A stretch of 64,000 bases of DNA from Vreelandella zhanjiangensis DSM 21076 (GTDB taxonomy: Bacteria > Pseudomonadota > Gammaproteobacteria > Pseudomonadales > Halomonadaceae). The DNA lies in NCBI RefSeq assembly GCF_000377665.1, contig NZ_KB898650.1, positions 1 through 64,000 on the forward strand, read 5' to 3'. The notes beneath the pieces are model-generated. The model was given only the letters and a program-made list of their open reading frames with translations. It did no database searches and had not been told where the DNA came from. Shown here piece by piece: positions 10,326 through 62,635 of the stretch. Every line of letters begins with the position of its first letter. Positions within the stretch are counted from its first letter, which is position 1. The position numbers and the translations under genes are program-made.

Positions 10326-10502
10326 ATGTATGTCTACCGCATCATGCTGTTTTTGGTGTTTGGCGGTTACTTACTCTCTCCGTTATTGATGGACGGCTGG
10401 AGCGATCCCGACGCGGTCTGGTACCGACCGTTTGCGATCTGGGGCGTATTGATTGCGCTCACGCTATGGCTTGAGCAAAAAAGGAAGTTAGATGAGCGTT
10501 GA
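10326..10502 (+). CDS. cbrX: Small membrane protein CbrX-like, upstream of cbrA
   Basis: A 58-residue protein with one hydrophobic segment near the N-terminus (RIMLFLVFGGYLLSPLLM) and a second one ending before the basic tail EQKRKLDER. It starts at ATG 10326 after AAGGA, and its stop lies 11 bases inside cbrA, so translation of the two is probably coupled. In Pseudomonas a short gene called cbrX holds exactly this place. The assignment here rests on position, size and hydrophobicity rather than sequence comparison. Its function is unknown; it may set expression of the large sensor kinase. Confidence 0.7.
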   Translation: MYVYRIMLFLVFGGYLLSPLLMDGWSDPDAVWYRPFAIWGVLIALTLWLEQKRKLDER

Positions 10503-13434
10503 GTTAACCGGCGTTTTACTGCTCGGATTAGGCTACCTGGGCCTGCTGTTTAGCTGTGGCGTTGCCGTAGAGCGCGGTTGGATACCCACACGGATTGCTC
10601 GCCACCCGCTGGTCTACACCCTCGCGCTAGGGGTTTATGCCAGCGCCTGGGCCATCTATGGCAGCGTCGAGTTTGCCGCCAATGCAGGATTTGGTTATCT
10701 GGCCTATTACCTGGGCGCGGCGGGTACGTTTCTGCTCGCGCCGGTGCTGCTGGTACCCATTCAGCGTATTACCCGTACCTACCAGCTCGCTTCACTAGCA
10801 GATCTGTTTGCGTTTCGCTTTCGCTCCCGCTGGGCAGGCACGCTGGTCACGTTGATCAGCCTGCTGGCGGTGTTGCCACTGCTGGGTATTCAGGTTCAAA
10901 CCTTAAGCGATGCCATTCACTGGCTTACCGGCAGCCCCTACAGCTCTGGCGCGGCGCTGCTGTTTTGCGGGTTGATTGCGGTGTTTGCCGTGGTCTTCGG
11001 CGCACGGCATAGTCATGCTCGCCAGGACCCTTTGATCAGCATCCTGGCATTTGAATCGTTGATCAAACTGTTCGCGATGCTCGGCCTGGGCGCGGCAGCG
11101 CTATGGCTTGTGTTTGACGGGCCGCAGGACCTGCAACACTGGCTGGAAGGGCCGGGCTTTCAAGCCCAGCTGGCAACTCCTCAGCTAGAGGAGGCCCAGT
11201 GGCGCACGCTGCTGCTACTGTTTTTTGCAGCCGCCTTCATGATGCCCCACCTGTTTCATATCACGTTTGCCGAAAACCTGTCGCGCCATACGCTGCTTCA
11301 AGCCAGCTGGACTCTGCCGCTCTACTTGCTATTAATGGCCATACCGATACCCCTGATTTGGTGGGCTGCCCAATCCGTCACCGACGATATTCCGGTCGCG
11401 GCCTACGCCGTTTATGTGATGAGCGAACACTGGTGGATCAAGGCGCTGGCGTTTCTGGCCGGACTTGCCGCCGCCAGTGGCACCATGATCATGATCGCGC
11501 TGGCCCTTTCCGGCATGGTGCTCAACCATATCGTGCTGGTGGCCAGGCCTCCAGAAGCCCGGAGTGACCTGTATGGCTGGCTGCTCTGGCTACGCCGTGG
11601 CTTGGTAGTCGGCGTTATTATTAGCGGCTGGCTGTTTTATGAATGGGTGGGGCGAAATCACGACCTTGCCAGCCTTGGCCTGGCATCGTTTGTCGGCATG
11701 GCGCAATGCTTACCCGGTATGCTGGCGCTGCTCTATTGGCCAGGCGCCAACCGCATGGGCATGGTGGTCGGACTGATCGCAGGCGTTGCGCTATGGCTCT
11801 GGGGGCTCTGGCTGCCGCTGATTTTCTCGCTCCCCACACCGCCGCTGCCCTTTGCCCACCTTATCCCTGCCAATGCGCCGCCCTGGTACACGGTCACTCT
11901 GCTGTCGCTTGCCACTAACATCGTGCTGTTGATTGTCATCTCGCTGTTTACGCGTATATCAGAAGGTGAAAGATCAGCGGCAGAAGCGTGTTCTGTCGAT
12001 GCGGTCATCCGCTCGAAGCGCTTACCGCTGGAAGCCGCCACCGCCGCTGATTTTTCTCCCCATCTGGCCCAGGCTATAGGCGATGAGGCGGCCCAGCGCG
12101 AGGTTTCCCGAGCGCTAAAAGCCCTCAAGCTGACGCCTCAAGAGCGGCGTCCTTACGCGTTACGCAGGCTACGCGACCGTATTCAGGCCAACCTTTCAGG
12201 CTTGATGGGGCCTTCGGTCGCCCGCGATATCGTCGATCGCTACCTGCCCTACCGCCATGATGATGCACCGGTAACCGACGATATCCACTTTGTCGAAAGT
12301 CGCTTGGAAGCCTACCGCTCGCGCCTGACCGGGCTTGCCCGTGAGCTTGACGGGCTACGCCGTCACCACCGACAAACGCTGGCTTACCTGCCGGTGGGGC
12401 TGTGCGTATTTGGCGATGATAAAGAGCTTATTATGTGGAATCAGGCGCTGACGCGGCTTTCAGGCATTAGCGGAGAAAGCGTTATTGGCTCGCGCTGCGA
12501 CAGCCTGCCCGCCCCGTGGTCTGAACTGCTGGGCAATGTGCTTTCCGCCTCGCAAACCCCGCGCTATAAACAGGCGGTGTCGCTGCACGGCAAGGATTAC
12601 TTTCTGACCCTGCATAAAGCGGAGCTAAGCGGCCATGACAGCCGGGGCGGCAGCGTCGTTCTGGTTGAAGACCATACCGAGATGAAGTGGCTTGAGGATG
12701 AACTGGTGCATGCCGCCCGCCTGGCGTCTATCGGCCAGCTGGCGGCGGGCGTGGCCCATGAAATCGGCAATCCGATTACCGGGATCTCGTCACTGGCGCA
12801 AAATTTACGCTACGATACCAACGACCCTGCCCTGCTGGAAACCGCCGACCAGATTCAGCAATTGACCCAGCGAGTCACTAAAATAGTTAACTCACTGGTA
12901 GGCTTTGCTCACGGCGGTCGCCTTTCGGGCCCACCACCAGCGTCGCCCGTAGCGCTTACGGCGATTAGCGAAGACGCATTACACTTGATCCACCTGGCGC
13001 GCTCGGGCGAGGATGTAACGCTTACCAACGCCTGCCCTGAAGATCTTGTGGTACGCGGTGACGCGCAGCGGTTGACCCAGGTCATGGTCAATCTGCTCAG
13101 CAATGCCCGGGATGCCTGTATGCCCGGCGGTCATGTGACGATTACGGCTGGCCAGCAAAGTGGCAGCGCCTGGTGGCGAGTAACCGATGATGGCCAGGGG
13201 ATCGATCCGCGCGTGCGCGATCACCTGTTTGAGCCTTTCACCACCACCAAACCGGCAGGCGAAGGCACAGGCCTTGGGCTATCGCTTGCGTATCAGATTA
13301 TCAACGAGCATCAAGGCAAAATAGACGTGGCCTCGCCACCTCCCGATGAGCCTCGCGGCACGGCCATTACGCTTTGGCTGCCGCTTTACCAACAGGATGA
13401 CCCGCAATCCCATGCCCAGGATTCTGATTGTTGA
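10492..13434 (+). CDS. cbrA: Sensor histidine kinase CbrA with SLC5-like transporter domain
   Basis: A membrane sensor kinase controlling carbon and nitrogen source use through CbrB. The 980-residue protein starts with a sodium/solute-symporter-like domain of roughly twelve to thirteen helices (residues about 1-500, with the conserved [17 protein letters not shown] segment). A PAS-like region ([11 protein letters not shown]...) follows, then the dimerisation H-box [14 protein letters not shown] with the phospho-accepting His756. The ATPase domain has N, G1 and G2 boxes ([22 protein letters not shown]). Length and domain order match Pseudomonas CbrA. It overlaps cbrX by 11 bases and cbrB by 23. 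Histidine is reported as a transport substrate of the Pseudomonas protein; this is not inferable here. Confidence 0.93.
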
Positions 13435-14797
13435 AGATGAAGCGATTATTCGCAGCGCCTTAAAGCGCTTACTCGAACGCCATGACTATACCGTCAGCGA
13501 AGCGGGCAGCGTCGAAGACGCCAGCCAGTTGGCGCTTAACGAGTTCGATCTCATCATCAGCGACCTGCGCCTGCCGGGCGAACCGGGCACCACGCTGATC
13601 AGTGCCGCCGCCCCTGCGCCGGTGCTGATCATGACCAGCTATGCCAGCATGCGCTCGGCGGTGGACGCCTTAAAGCAGGGGGCGGTCGACTATATCGCCA
13701 AACCGTTTGACCATACTGAGCTGCTTGAAACCATTGAGCGCATTTTGCATCAGCAGTCGATGCAGCACGGCGAGCCACCCGCGATTACCGATGATGGCGG
13801 CAGCCAGCAGATGATGATCGGTAATTGCACGGCCATGCAGCAGGTCTATACGCGTATTCGCAAAACCGCCCCGGCCGACGTTACCGTACTGATTCTGGGT
13901 GAATCGGGTACCGGTAAAGAGCTTGTCGCCCGAGCGATTCATCAGCAGAGTAAGCGCGCCAAAGCGCCGCTGATCAGCGTTAACTGCGCGGCTATTCCCG
14001 AAACGCTGATCGAATCAGAGCTGTTTGGGCATGAAAAAGGTGCATTTACCGGCGCCAGTGCATCACGCACCGGCTTAGTAGAAGCCGCCGACCAAGGCAC
14101 GCTGTTTTTGGATGAAATAGGCGAGCTACCCCTGGATGCCCAGGCGCGTCTGCTGCGCGTACTGCAGGAGGGCGAAATTCGTAAGATCGGCTCGGTCGAA
14201 ACCCGCCACGTGAATGTACGCCTGATTGCCGCCACTCACCGGGACCTGCGCGCCCTGTCCAAAAGCGGCGAATTCCGCTTGGATCTTTATTACCGCCTGA
14301 ACGTCATGCAGATCGAGCTGCCCCCGCTTCGCGAACGCGAAGACGATGTACTGGAAATTGCCGATATTCTGCTGGATAAGGCGTGCGCTCGACACGAACG
14401 CCCCGGCCTACGGCTTTCCAGAGCGGCCCGCCAGGATCTGCGCGACTACCCATGGCCAGGCAATGTCCGTGAGTTGGAAAATGCCTTGGAGCGGGGGGTG
14501 ATTCTGGCGGAGGGCCATTTGATTCACCCTGACGACCTGGGGCTTGCGCCAACGCCGTCGCGTAACCATTCGCAGGCCAACCCCGCGGCAACACCTTCCG
14601 CTGACGAGACTGCCCAAGGAGAAGATGAGGATGATCTATCCTTGGAAGACTACTTTCAGCACTTTGTGCTTGAACACCAGGACCAGATGAGTGAAACCGA
14701 GCTGGCTCAAAAACTCGGCATCAGCCGCAAGAACTTATGGGAGCGGCGCCAGCGGCTAGGCATCCCACGCAAGAAGACCGCACGGCGTCCTAACTGA
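13412..14797 (+). CDS. cbrB: Sigma-54-dependent response regulator CbrB
   Basis: Phosphorylated by CbrA, it activates sigma-54 promoters, in Pseudomonas chiefly that of the small RNA CrcZ. The 461-residue protein has a receiver domain with phospho-acceptor Asp51 (SDLRLPG), an AAA+ domain with Walker A GESGTGKE, the sigma-54 contact loop GAFTGA, Walker B LFLDEIGE, and a C-terminal helix-turn-helix ([19 protein letters not shown]). The start at ATG 13412 gives [10 protein letters not shown], which aligns with the family start; an ATG at 13397 is the alternative. It lies directly upstream of a sigma-54 promoter and an untranslated A-rich region, as in Pseudomonas. Confidence 0.93.
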
Positions 14798-14899
14798 CGC
14801 CGTGGCAGGCCGCGAGACAAACCTAACACTTACGACTTACGACCAACGTCTAATATACTGATTTAAATAAAAAATATTTAAAAATCGCGTTCCAGACAC

Positions 14900-14962
14900 T
14901 GTTACCTACCCACACAAACGACTCAAAAAACCGACACGGATCCGGTAACACTTGTTTGTTAC
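14900..14962 (+). promoter_or_regulatory. Candidate CbrB upstream activating half-sites
   Basis: Three copies of the same hexamer lie here: TGTTAC (14900-14905), its inverse GTAACA (14945-14950), and TGTTAC again (14957-14962). The last two form a palindrome with a six-base spacer. They sit about 90-150 bases upstream of the predicted start of the sigma-54 transcript, the usual position for an enhancer-binding protein. CbrB is the obvious candidate because its gene ends 103 bases upstream. An A/T-rich stretch (14994-15020) between sites and promoter could bend or bind IHF. Binding is inferred, not shown. Confidence 0.5.
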
Positions 14963-15024
14963 CCTGCCGCTCTGGCACGCCATTAAACCCTCAAGACATT
15001 GAAATTTAAAAAAATTAAAACAAC

Positions 15025-15040
15025 TGGCACGACGAGTGCA
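15025..15040 (+). promoter_or_regulatory. Sigma-54 (RpoN) promoter
   Basis: TGGCACG, four bases, then GTGCA: GG at 15026-15027 and GC at 15038-15039 with the required 10-base gap between them. It departs from the consensus TGGCACG-N4-TTGCA at one position only. The predicted transcription start is near 15051. No coding sequence begins within 580 bases downstream, so the transcript is expected to be a regulatory RNA. Confidence 0.85.
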
Positions 15041-15050
15041 ATATTACTGG

Positions 15051-15502
15051 GTAAGAAAAACAAATTGGGCCGCGCGGTGGGTCGCTAACAAAAACAAAAT
15101 GACACCACCCCAACCTGAGCCATAACAAAAACAACAGGGCCAGGTGAGATAACAGCACTAATAACAATAACAGGCTTACATCTCTGACTTGCTGGCGCTA
15201 AGAAGAATAAGCGCAGCTAATAAAAACAAAAGGTAGCAAGTGCCCAGAAAGGACGCGACGTACACCGAATGATCTGCGTACGAACAATAATAATAGCAGT
15301 GAGTGTGTACACCCCCGGAACCAATAATAATACGTCGGGGAAGAAAAGTTCGCGGTTGGATTATTGTTTTGAATACGAGGCGGTCGGATACGGCCTATCG
15401 ACTGCGGTGCGTATTCAGGGCGATGTGCCATCATGAAGAAAAACAGCAGCATGGACGCTGATTGAACACTTTATAGGGGAGGCTCTTTTAGCCTCCCCTT
15501 TC
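15051..15502 (+). ncRNA. crcZ: CrcZ-like regulatory small RNA
   Basis: Predicted about 450-nt untranslated RNA between cbrB and pcnB. It starts at a sigma-54 promoter and ends in a strong terminator. Within it lie A-rich AAN-repeat motifs of the Hfq/Crc type: 15053-15064, 15087-15099, 15124-15136, 15160-15172, 15200-15210, 15219-15231, 15283-15295, 15323-15332 and a weaker one near 15436. The motif at 15323 is held in the loop of a CCCCG/CGGGG stem (15313-15340). In Pseudomonas CrcZ has the same location, promoter type and repeated CA motifs, and titrates Hfq/Crc to relieve carbon catabolite repression. Sequence ends are predicted; the name rests on synteny and motifs. Confidence 0.82.
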
Positions 15503-15503
15503 C
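15475..15503 (+). terminator. Intrinsic terminator of the CrcZ-like RNA
   Basis: A perfect 10-bp stem AGGGGAGGCT/AGCCTCCCCT with a CTTTT loop is followed by TTT. It separates the A-rich RNA from pcnB. Confidence 0.88.
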
Positions 15504-15545
15504 GCGTTTATAGGGTAAGGCGTTTGCAAACCTGCCAGAGGTGCT

Positions 15546-15573
15546 TTGCAAGCGTAAAGGGGTCGGCTACACT
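15546..15573 (+). promoter_or_regulatory. Candidate sigma-70 promoter for pcnB
   Basis: TTGCAA (15546-15551) and TACACT (15568-15573) with a 16-base spacer lie 62 bases upstream of the chosen pcnB start and downstream of the preceding terminator. It is plausible by position only. Confidence 0.4.
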
Positions 15574-15634
15574 CATCGGCTTACCGATTACTTCACGGTC
15601 ATTTTTTCGATACCCTGCGAGTCGATATCGCCGC

Positions 15635-17020
15635 ATGTTCAAAGGATTTACCCGTTTCTTACATAGCCCGGGAGAGCAATTGAAAACCCTGCTCGATCCC
15701 CAAGAGAGTGAAACCACTCTCAGCCCACGCATTATTCCTCGGTCCGAGCATCCCGTTTCTCGCCAACATATCAGCGACGCCGCGTTAAAAGTGCTCTATC
15801 GCCTTAGCGGTGCAGGCTTTGAGGCCTATCTGGTAGGCGGATGTATTCGCGATGCTTTGCTTGGCAAGATGCCCAAGGATTTTGACGTTGCCACCAACGC
15901 GACGCCTGAACAGGTACGCGATCTGTTTCGCAACTCGCGCTTGATCGGCCGACGCTTTCGTATTGTCCACGTCCGCTTTGGGCGTGAGGTCATCGAAGTC
16001 ACTACGTTCCGTGGCAAACCACAAGACGAACATGGCGATCACATTGCCCAACAGTCTGACGCCGGCCTGCTGCTGCGTGACAACGTATGGGGCAATATCG
16101 AGGAAGACGCCTTACGGCGCGACTTCACCGTCAATGCCCTGTACTACAACATTGCCGACTTCAGCCTTCACGATTTTGCCAACGGTGCGCGCGATATTGA
16201 ATCGCGCACGCTGCGCCTGATCGGCGACCCGGCCACGCGCTACCGGGAAGATCCGGTACGTATGCTGCGCGCCGTGCGCTTTGCGGCCAAGCTCGATTTC
16301 ACCATTGAGCCTGCCACCGAAGCACCGATGTACGATCTTGCGCCGCTGCTGCTGCAAATTCCGCCCGCGCGACTGTTTGATGAAGTGCTCAAGATGTTTA
16401 TGTCCGGTCATGGACTGGCGACCTTCCGCCTGCTCAGCCATTACGGCCTGTTTGGCATGCTCTTCCCCGAATCGGAAGAGGCCATGGCCGATGCGGCGTG
16501 GGCGGAAAAATTAATCGAATACGCCCTGACCAATACCGACAAGCGGATTGCCGAAGACCGCCCAGTGACACCTGCGTTCCTGCTCGCCGCTTTCTTGTGG
16601 GCGCCGGTCGCCAACCGCCAGGCCGAGCTTGAAGCTGAAGGCATGCCCGCCATACCGGCGCTACAAACGGCGGCTCAAGAGGTTGTTTCGCGTCAGTTGG
16701 AACATACCTCTATCCCTAAACGCTTTGGTATGCCCATGCGCGATATTTGGGAGCTGCAGGCACGCCTTCCGTTACGGCGCGGCAAGCGCGCTTTCCAGAC
16801 CCGCGAGCACCCGCGTTTCCGCGCAGCTTACGATTTACTCCTGCTGCGCGAGCAAGCCGGTGAGATTCCGCGCGGCCTGGGCGACTGGTGGACGGCTTTC
16901 CAGCAGGGCGATGAGCATGAACAGCGCCGCCTGCTTCAGAAAGTGGGCGGCGACCCGGCAAGCCAGGGCGACCGCCGCCGCAAACGGCGCCGTAAACCCA
17001 CGCGTAACCCCGAACAGTGA
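15635..17020 (+). CDS. pcnB: Poly(A) polymerase I
   Basis: Adds 3' poly(A) tails that promote RNA decay, acting with PNPase and RNase E. The 461-residue protein has the class II nucleotidyltransferase signature GGCIRDALLGK, the catalytic DFDVATNATPEQV aspartates and the RRDFTVNALYYN segment. The C-terminus is very basic (RRKRRRKPTRNPEQ), as in other PcnB proteins. The start at ATG 15635 gives MFKGFTRF, matching the family; an in-frame ATG at 15524 would reach back toward the RNA terminator and is rejected. No clear ribosome-binding site precedes 15635. folK follows after 7 bases. Confidence 0.93.
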   Translation: MFKGFTRFLHSPGEQLKTLLDPQESETTLSPRIIPRSEHPVSRQHISDAALKVLYRLSGAGFEAYLVGGCIRDALLGKMPKDFDVATNATPEQVRDLFRNSRLIGRRFRIVHVRFGREVIEVTTFRGKPQDEHGDHIAQQSDAGLLLRDNVWGNIEEDALRRDFTVNALYYNIADFSLHDFANGARDIESRTLRLIGDPATRYREDPVRMLRAVRFAAKLDFTIEPATEAPMYDLAPLLLQIPPARLFDEVLKMFMSGHGLATFRLLSHYGLFGMLFPESEEAMADAAWAEKLIEYALTNTDKRIAEDRPVTPAFLLAAFLWAPVANRQAELEAEGMPAIPALQTAAQEVVSRQLEHTSIPKRFGMPMRDIWELQARLPLRRGKRAFQTREHPRFRAAYDLLLLREQAGEIPRGLGDWWTAFQQGDEHEQRRLLQKVGGDPASQGDRRRKRRRKPTRNPEQ

Positions 17021-24934: not shown

Positions 24935-25204
24935 TTAGCGGCGCAGACCTAAACGCTGGATCAGAGACTGATAGCGTTCGAAATCTTTACGCTTCAGGTA
25001 GTCCAGCAGTTTACGACGCTGGTTTACCATGCGGATCAGACCACGACGCGAGTGGTGATCCTGCTTGTTGGTTTTGAAGTGGTCCTGCAGGCCATTGATG
25101 TTGGCGCTCAGCAGTGCAACCTGTACTTCAGGGGAACCGGTATCGTTATCGCCGCGGCCGTATTCGTTGACGATTTCGGCTTTAGTTTCAGCGGTTAATG
25201 CCAT
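24935..25204 (-). CDS. rpsO: 30S ribosomal protein S15
   Basis: Binds 16S rRNA central domain and bridges to the 50S subunit. The 89-residue protein is the standard length. Its [28 protein letters not shown] start, [20 protein letters not shown] block and C-terminal LGLRR are diagnostic. GGAGAGA precedes ATG 25204. A 131-base region separates it from truB, holding its own promoter and, by analogy with E. coli, a possible S15 autoregulatory leader. Confidence 0.98.
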
Positions 25205-25335
25205 CTGTCTCTCCAGTAAGCAATATGCCTAAAATTTAATGGGTGAGACCACGCATATTTGCAGTCTCAGGCGACTCTCTTCACGTACTATTTTCGCGCA
25301 AACCGTCACATCCTTGCAACGTTTTACCCAGACTC

Positions 25336-31612: not shown

Positions 31613-31689
<77 letters not shown>

Positions 31690-31859
31690 TCAATCTAGGT
31701 CGACGATAATAGACACTTGAACCACTTACGTCAAGCTATCTTTTCGTCTCAGGTGCCAAACCTGCTCTCTTTAGCAAAACGTTTTTGACGAAACAATGTG
31801 TTTTGACAAAATACAGTTTTGAAAAAGAATCTGGGAAGCTGGCGAGCCAGCGAATCAGA

Positions 31860-31946
31860 TGGTGCCGAAGGCGGGACTTGAACCCGCACGACCATACGGT
31901 CACTACCCCCTCAAGATAGCGTGTCTACCAATTCCACCACTTCGGC
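31860..31946 (-). tRNA. tRNA-Leu (GAG)
   Basis: 87 bases with encoded CCA, 5' GCCGAAG pairing with CTTCGGC. It has the long variable arm of leucine tRNAs, anticodon loop TTGAGGG giving anticodon GAG, and T loop GTTCAAGTC. It follows secG on the same strand, as in many gammaproteobacteria. Confidence 0.95.
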
Positions 31947-62257: not shown

Positions 62258-62635
62258 GGGGGCGACATGGTTTCGACGCCGGTGACAACCCTTGCGGTGC
62301 ATGCCGAGAGCGTGATGTATCTCGTAAATCCCACATCACGAAAAATAGTCGCAAATGACGAAAACTACGCTCAAGGCGCGCTAGCAGCTTAAACTGTTAG
62401 CTTCTTGTCTGGCCCCAAGGTGATGTGCCTATTCATCATTGAGGGGATACGAGCTAAAGCTGATAGGACCGCGTTTGGTGGTGTCTTCTCGCCAAGCGTT
62501 AAATTTTAGAAGGCTCGCGTTGCTGAATCCTGATCGTCGGAGTCAGTGACGTTAAAACAAATGACGAAATCTAAGCATGTAGAGCCAATAGGCGCGTGCT
62601 GGCGGACGCGGGTTCAATTCCCGCCGCCTCCACCA
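62258..62635 (+). ncRNA. ssrA: Transfer-messenger RNA (tmRNA)
   Basis: About 378 bases. The 5' GGGGGCG pairs with 3' CGCCTCC before the encoded ACCA, forming the tRNA-like acceptor, and GTTCAATTC is the T loop. The resume codon is GCA at 62351 and the tag reads ANDENYAQGALAA then TAA (62390). This tag is longer than the common ten-residue type by three residues. A terminator follows. Confidence 0.95.

Follow-up and report, generated by a model that had tools for sequence, protein, structure and literature searches.

The closest described relatives of the RNA discussed here come from Pseudomonas and Azotobacter. CrcZ of P. aeruginosa PAO1 is 407 nt long and has six A-rich stretches, as given in the available part of PMC4063720, and CrcY of Pseudomonas and Azotobacter resembles the present case in being a decoy RNA under CbrB and RpoN, according to the accessible text of PMC6292655 and PMC6296734. 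A 2022 review states, in the part at hand, that CbrAB is unique to the Pseudomonadaceae, hosted by Pseudomonas and Azotobacter alone (PMC8871633). This view contrasts with what the genomes contain: in a draw of 244 from the order, 175 have a CbrA homologue (E<=1e-130), and in a draw of 101 from the family, 98 have the RNA itself, as traced by its core. For Halomonas, a search of the literature on CrcZ, CbrAB, Crc/Hfq and small RNAs found no description of such a system, the available portions of PMC9049629, PMC13086519, PMC13101641 and PMC5073097 included, and for CrcZ in Marinobacter no paper was found. Transcripts of cbrAB have been counted in a marine community, whose hosts are without names in the accessible part of that study (PMC5073097).

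How does the new locus compare? It lies in Vreelandella zhanjiangensis DSM 21076, in the window, that is, the whole stretch of 64,000 nucleotides that was analysed, and it very probably encodes a CrcZ-type decoy RNA for Hfq and Crc in Vreelandella/Halomonas. Judged from the sequences compared, this would be a conserved CrcZ relative that escapes the Rfam model, and the mechanism proposed below is well supported by comparison. All features of the locus are on the + strand. A cbrA-type sensor kinase gene (10492-13434; 980 aa) matches HisKA and HATPase_c in Pfam, and for its SSS/SLC5 part there was no Pfam match at E<=0.001. Full-length homologues of this protein, with 49-51% identity, are present in 9/9 genomes of the order draw that belong to f21, a family taken as the Pseudomonadaceae because of its matches to the Rfam model of CrcZ, RF01675 (above the gathering score in eight of nine genomes). 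Next comes cbrB (13412-14797; 461 aa; Response_reg and Sigma54_activat in Pfam), the sigma-54-dependent response regulator, which is 60-64% identical to the gene preceding the RNA in seven f21 loci. From its stop at 14797 to the start of pcnB at 15635, the intergenic region (14798-15634) measures about 837 nt, in line with the 840 bases of the preliminary description. The downstream neighbour, the poly(A) polymerase gene pcnB, occupies 15635-17020 and scores above the cut-off of TIGR01942. The predicted CrcZ-like RNA would span 15051-15503, about 453 nt, both ends being predictions.

The most conspicuous feature of this RNA is its array of A-rich motifs. Nine separate AANAANAA clusters stand in 15051-15505 (455 nt), while 2000 dinucleotide shuffles of this same sequence average 0.87 and never exceed 5, and the runners-up among the 455-nt stretches of the window, on either strand, contain 3. 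The earlier estimate of eight or nine motifs in 450 bases, and the opinion that such a density does not arise by chance, are thus borne out by the count and by the shuffles. The predicted fold of the RNA (-140.9 kcal/mol, z -5.0) is matched by 0/100 shuffles. In it, motif 1 (15053-15062) lies in the external loop; motifs 2 (15087-15098), 3 (15124-15135), 4 (15160-15171), 5 (15200-15210), 7 (15283-15295) and 8 (15323-15333) lie in hairpin loops; motif 6 (15219-15231) is in an internal loop, and motif 9 (15436-15444) is partly paired. Six of nine in hairpin loops is more than the single one first described. The strong terminator of that description fares less evenly: a hairpin at 15475-15499 has a stem of 10 pairs in the predicted fold, yet only a short T tail follows, and the hairpin is not among the matches of a terminator scan. 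As for possible targets of Hfq/Crc, the window has 34 AANAANAA clusters outside the RNA, of which only 4, in a count without control, are close to a possible start codon.

The likeness to CrcZ of Pseudomonas extends to the position between cbrB and pcnB, the sigma-54 element and the array of A-rich motifs, yet the Rfam model does not recognize the locus. An Infernal search, which had been suggested as a check of the CrcZ assignment, gave RF01675 scores of 13.5 and 12.0 bits in the window against a gathering score of 95, and so lent the assignment no support. There was no RF01675 match at E<=0.001 in the window's genome, and among the ten family genomes of the order draw only G036 has one, at 22.3 bits. 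RF01675 matches 30 loci in other families of the order, and 24 of these have the arrangement cbrB-RNA-pcnB (f21 7/8, f2 2/3, f35 5/5, f20 7/7, f44 3/3). In the f21 locus L092 neither cbrB nor pcnB adjoins the RNA, which may be a second copy; L100 and L110 have pcnB only, and their upstream side ends at a contig end. Eight f21 loci have 5-6 motifs within their first 400 nt, against the nine here, family counts being taken over a somewhat longer stretch than those 400 nt. Of the preliminary claim that the RNA has exactly the position and makeup of CrcZ, the position holds; the makeup differs, with more motifs, an additional 3' core and a score below the gathering score of RF01675. Of the traits of CrcZ as a functional class, the cbrB/pcnB position, a sigma-54 promoter with CbrB subsites (both read from the sequence) and several A-rich motifs are present, while induction on poor carbon sources, binding of Hfq and relief of repression would be expected; the RNA, CrcZ-like by function class and below the gathering score of the Rfam model, is consequently filed as a variant.

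Within the family, CbrA (E<=1e-100) is present in 56 of the 101 genomes, in one of them in two pieces. Behind cbrA in the 55 genomes besides the window's, 54 regions have pcnB downstream and 6-11 motifs; the exception is L090 of G024, with neither downstream pcnB nor a motif-bearing gap. Of the 45 family genomes lacking a CbrA match, 43 have the word of the 3' core (<=2 mismatches) and 21 have CbrB (E<=1e-120). Traced by its core, the RNA is found in 98 genomes: 55 with cbrA and cbrB, 21 with cbrB alone, and 22 in which neither was found. These RNAs have 5-9 motifs, with group means of 8.0, 8.1 and 7.6, respectively. A-rich arrays precede pcnB in the 98 core-bearing genomes and also in G017 and G018, where the core is absent and five and seven A-rich clusters, respectively, stand within 1500 nt upstream of the pcnB match. 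When all genome contigs were scanned for the core word, at least 119 stretches matched; among the matches listed are Halomonas, Vreelandella, Salinicola, Kushneria, Chromohalobacter, Cobetia, Oceanospirillum, Marinospirillum and relatives, together with one metagenome bin labelled Pseudomonadaceae that presumably corresponds to the family genome G094. An origin from a mobile element was also considered and set aside, 15330-15510 having no match in plasmid or phage collections (E<=1e-5).

In six loci, gluQ stands directly before the RNA, followed by pcnB: Salinicola L142, L171 and L196, Kushneria L157 and L184, and the metagenome bin L192. No cbrA or cbrB match was found in these loci, yet all six still have a sigma-54 element and, behind it, the motifs and the core. 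L160 looks like them, its upstream sequence being too short to show gluQ. In L145, L152, L197, L206 and L164, cbrB and the RNA are kept, and there is no cbrA match between gluQ and cbrB.

The promoter would tie the RNA to the regulator encoded beside it. For sigma-54 the consensus is TGGCACN5TTGCW, and the -24/-12 element TGGCACGACGAGTGCA at 15025-15040 departs from it by one mismatch, as had been noted; among all 16-mers of the window, both strands included, two others equal it (+47809 and -52099) and none is better. Judged from the -12 GC, we infer a transcription start near 15051. Behind cbrA in the family the element has 1-3 mismatches (L090, which is without the RNA, is set apart), and 1-2 in the RNA loci listed in the comparison with cbrB. 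In P. putida, TGTTAC (F) and GTAACA (R) are the subsites of CbrB, according to the accessible text of PMC6296734. Here, a predicted subsite F, an exact TGTTAC, lies at 14900-14905, -125 from the sigma-54 element, and a predicted subsite R, GTAACA, at 14945-14950 (-80), both conserved; an extra TGTTAC at 14957-14962 (-68) is also found in L211. In f21, TGTTAC is placed alike, at -122 to -125 in 8/8 loci, whereas the second subsite is placed differently, near -103 (-102 to -104) in seven of the eight and at -88 in L092.

Searched over 200 nt upstream of the sigma-54 element, the exact words TGTTAC and GTAACA are both present in 76/76 RNA loci whose genome has cbrB, at near-fixed distances, mostly -125/-80. 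In the genomes where cbrB was not found (E<=1e-120), 0/22 RNA loci have both: neither word is present in 20, and two have one TGTTAC. This agreement is perfect, yet the independent losses behind it number one or two. In a quickly built tree of pcnB, in which 13 of 98 rows cover less than half of the columns, the presence of cbrB needs two changes, one also being possible, and changes this few are too few for a sign test. On the same tree the presence of CbrA needs six changes, at least four of them forced by well-supported branches. CbrB barely depends on phosphorylation, according to the part of PMC6296734 available, so that the loss of CbrA would, as we read it, be tolerable.

Are the protein partners present as well? 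An RpoN homologue was found in 8/8 genomes examined, the window's included. The window's genome also encodes Hfq, with PDB 1u1s, the P. aeruginosa protein, as the best match. The same genome has a Crc homologue of 255 aa, whose best PDB match is 2myi (2e-77), labelled exodeoxyribonuclease III, followed by 4jg3 (4e-75), labelled catabolite repression control protein; its identity to the 4jg3 chain is 47% over 251 aligned residues. A separate protein of this genome matches exonuclease III best. Measured against the catalytic residues of ExoIII, the Crc homologue has presumably lost residues of the nuclease. Of the 12 contact residues of Crc named in the available part of PMC6422490, 10 are identical, including R140, E142, E193, R229 and R230, and K155 and M156 differ. 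Across the family, a Crc homologue is present in 101/101 genomes (E<=1e-25).

The mechanism proposed takes as its starting point what the DNA and its comparison contain: a promoter element followed by the motifs, CbrB subsites that are conserved together with cbrB, and homologues of Hfq, Crc and RpoN. Transcription, binding of Hfq/Crc, titration and the carbon signal are then what we infer. When the preferred carbon source is exhausted, CbrA would activate CbrB, which would bind the TGTTAC/GTAACA sites at 14900-14950 and drive sigma-54 transcription from about 15051. The RNA of about 450 nt would present its A-rich motifs, mostly in loops, and these would occupy the distal face of Hfq, together with Crc. 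This would free those mRNAs that Hfq-Crc blocks at their start regions. A cascade of the CbrAB-CrcZ type outside the pseudomonads, the idea from which this work departed, is thus supported by synteny, by the subsites in all RNA loci of cbrB-bearing genomes and by the Hfq, Crc and RpoN homologues. Weighing the other way are the low RF01675 score, the exodeoxyribonuclease III label of the Crc homologue's best PDB match, the differences at K155 and M156 of Crc and at residue 25 of Hfq, the small number of cbrB losses, the few clusters near candidate starts, and G024, which has CbrA and CbrB with no RNA adjoining.

Downstream of most of the motifs, the RNA has a second distinctive part. The core of the family is a 15-bp helix, AUUGUUUUGAAUACG / CGUAUUCAGGGCGAU, at 15363-15377 / 15410-15424, enclosing an inner helix of 6 bp at 15380-15385 / 15400-15405. 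The collection comprised 90 distinct core sequences (L061, a further locus, was left out), and in an alignment of 56 of them 99.5% of the cells of the outer helix and 98.8% of those of the inner one are paired. Eight of the 15 outer pairs are invariant, and none is altered on both sides. All 16 cells changed on both sides fall in the inner helix, against 5.8 in shuffles (0/500 as high, the shuffles ignoring kinship). Counted by pairs, the core is not above shuffles, which again ignore kinship: 3 pairs are changed on both sides against 2.0 (121/500), and there are 14 further pair types against 13.1 (126/500). The predicted core helix is thus well supported by complementarity and by slide controls, and moderately by covariation. 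A core constrained in sequence as well as in pairing suggests that something reads the helix.

A long-range helix inside the RNA is also a feature of CrcZ of Pseudomonas; the family 3' core, by contrast, was not found in any of the 30 RF01675 loci. At <=2 mismatches the core word is present in 10/10 family genomes and in 0/234 genomes from the rest of the order. R1, a covariance model built from the core, had no match in those 30 loci or in L295 and L297-L299 (E<=10, default filters); its only matches were the core of the window and the opposite strand of it, at E 0.24. Homology between the family core and that of Pseudomonas is accordingly unsupported, R1 having matched 0/30. A loose word of the 5' arm, ATTNTTTTG, does occur in 19 of the 30 RF01675 loci (shuffle rates 0-2%), though elsewhere in the RNA, and the two cores may yet be homologous. 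CrcX is a further decoy RNA of the CrcY kind. Set against CrcY and CrcX, the core word occurs only once in the window's genome (<=2 mismatches, a count of core-bearing copies).

Close to the core, at 15447-15460, the predicted fold forms a hairpin with the hexaloop AUGGAC, a putative site of the CsrA/RsmA type; these proteins bind hairpins of the CANGGANG kind. With a stem of at least 3 bp, CANGGANG is found in 55/98 family RNAs and in 0.35% of mononucleotide shuffles, and by group in 32/55 (cbrA and cbrB), 15/21 (cbrB alone) and 8/22 (neither found). CsrA is present in the window's genome. The CsrB and RsmZ RNAs are decoys for CsrA, and the likeness to them consists of this one hairpin in the 55 RNAs and of CsrA in the genome. 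Membership in that class goes with many GGA loops, whereas GGA is not enriched in the family RNAs, which average 7.6 where mononucleotide shuffles average 9.4; on this ground a CsrB-like sponge was discarded as the main role.

Could the stretch be something other than a decoy for Hfq and Crc? Lying between cbrB and pcnB on the same strand, it might belong to the mRNA of either neighbour, as a leader to pcnB or a 3' end to cbrB, with A-rich sites acting in cis and no RNA acting in trans. The family makes this very improbable: the stretch has a sigma-54 element of its own and ends in a hairpin terminator well short of pcnB, both in the aligned family, and the RNA remains beside pcnB where cbrB is gone. 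That it encodes small proteins is scarcely credible; short open frames do exist, for example 15269-15436 (55 aa), but this frame crosses the invariant helix, in a part where there are many indels among family members.

It is also improbable that the RNA is mainly a Crc-independent Hfq sponge, or that it is tied to nitrogen or another signal instead of carbon choice. What speaks for such a role is that 22 genomes keep the RNA where CbrA (E<=1e-100) and CbrB (E<=1e-120) were not found, and that none of these orphan promoters has both subsites. The word (T/C)GCACCA stands at -155 to -95 in 22/22 of them, and the palindrome TGCACN7GTGCA (<=1 mismatch) is found in 7/22 orphans against 0/76 others; both resemble NtrC sites. 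The word, however, is not special to orphans, as it also occurs in 21/21 cbrB-only loci and in 27/55 of the others in the family draw. The window itself has intact CbrB subsites and no GCACCA word at -155 to -95, and the Crc homologue found throughout the family, with its checked contact residues mostly kept in the window's genome, argues for a role with Crc.

Returning to the CrcZ-type decoy, its history in the family invites a further reading, which we put forward as a doubtful possibility. The decoy may now be independent of the switch, and the 3' helix, which in many RNAs adjoins the CsrA-type hairpin, may serve a second, sequence-specific function, as a protein or processing site. The Salinicola- and Kushneria-like RNAs without CbrAB may have moved to another sigma-54 activator, with NtrC as the candidate, and would then read nitrogen status.

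What is new here, by comparison of sequences, is the larger number of motifs than in Pseudomonas, an almost invariant 3' helix specific to the family, and apparent orphan RNAs for which cbrA, or cbrA and cbrB, were not found. RNAs retained where CbrAB was not found amount to a natural experiment on the essential part of the cascade. Halomonas strains are industrial producers of PHB, as stated in the available part of PMC13101641, and for such producers a switch of carbon preference would be of practical use.

Some smaller observations accompany these results. In L298 (G017), a TGGCAC-type element and five A-rich clusters stand upstream of pcnB without the 3' core, possibly a minimal form. G024 (L090, L295 and L299) has matches to CbrA and CbrB with no RNA or pcnB adjoining; its pcnB lies elsewhere, and the 1500 nt that precede it are free of A-rich clusters. 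In three loci of f8 (L115, L116 and L119), the RNA lies beside pcnB without cbrB, CbrA is encoded elsewhere in the genome, and TGTTAC and GTAACA are upstream. Position 25 of Hfq is F in the window's genome (L006:1489-1737) and Y in the best PDB match. The window also contains ordinary RNAs, namely an S15 leader, two tRNA genes and tmRNA (25148-25272, 31613-31946, 62258-62635).
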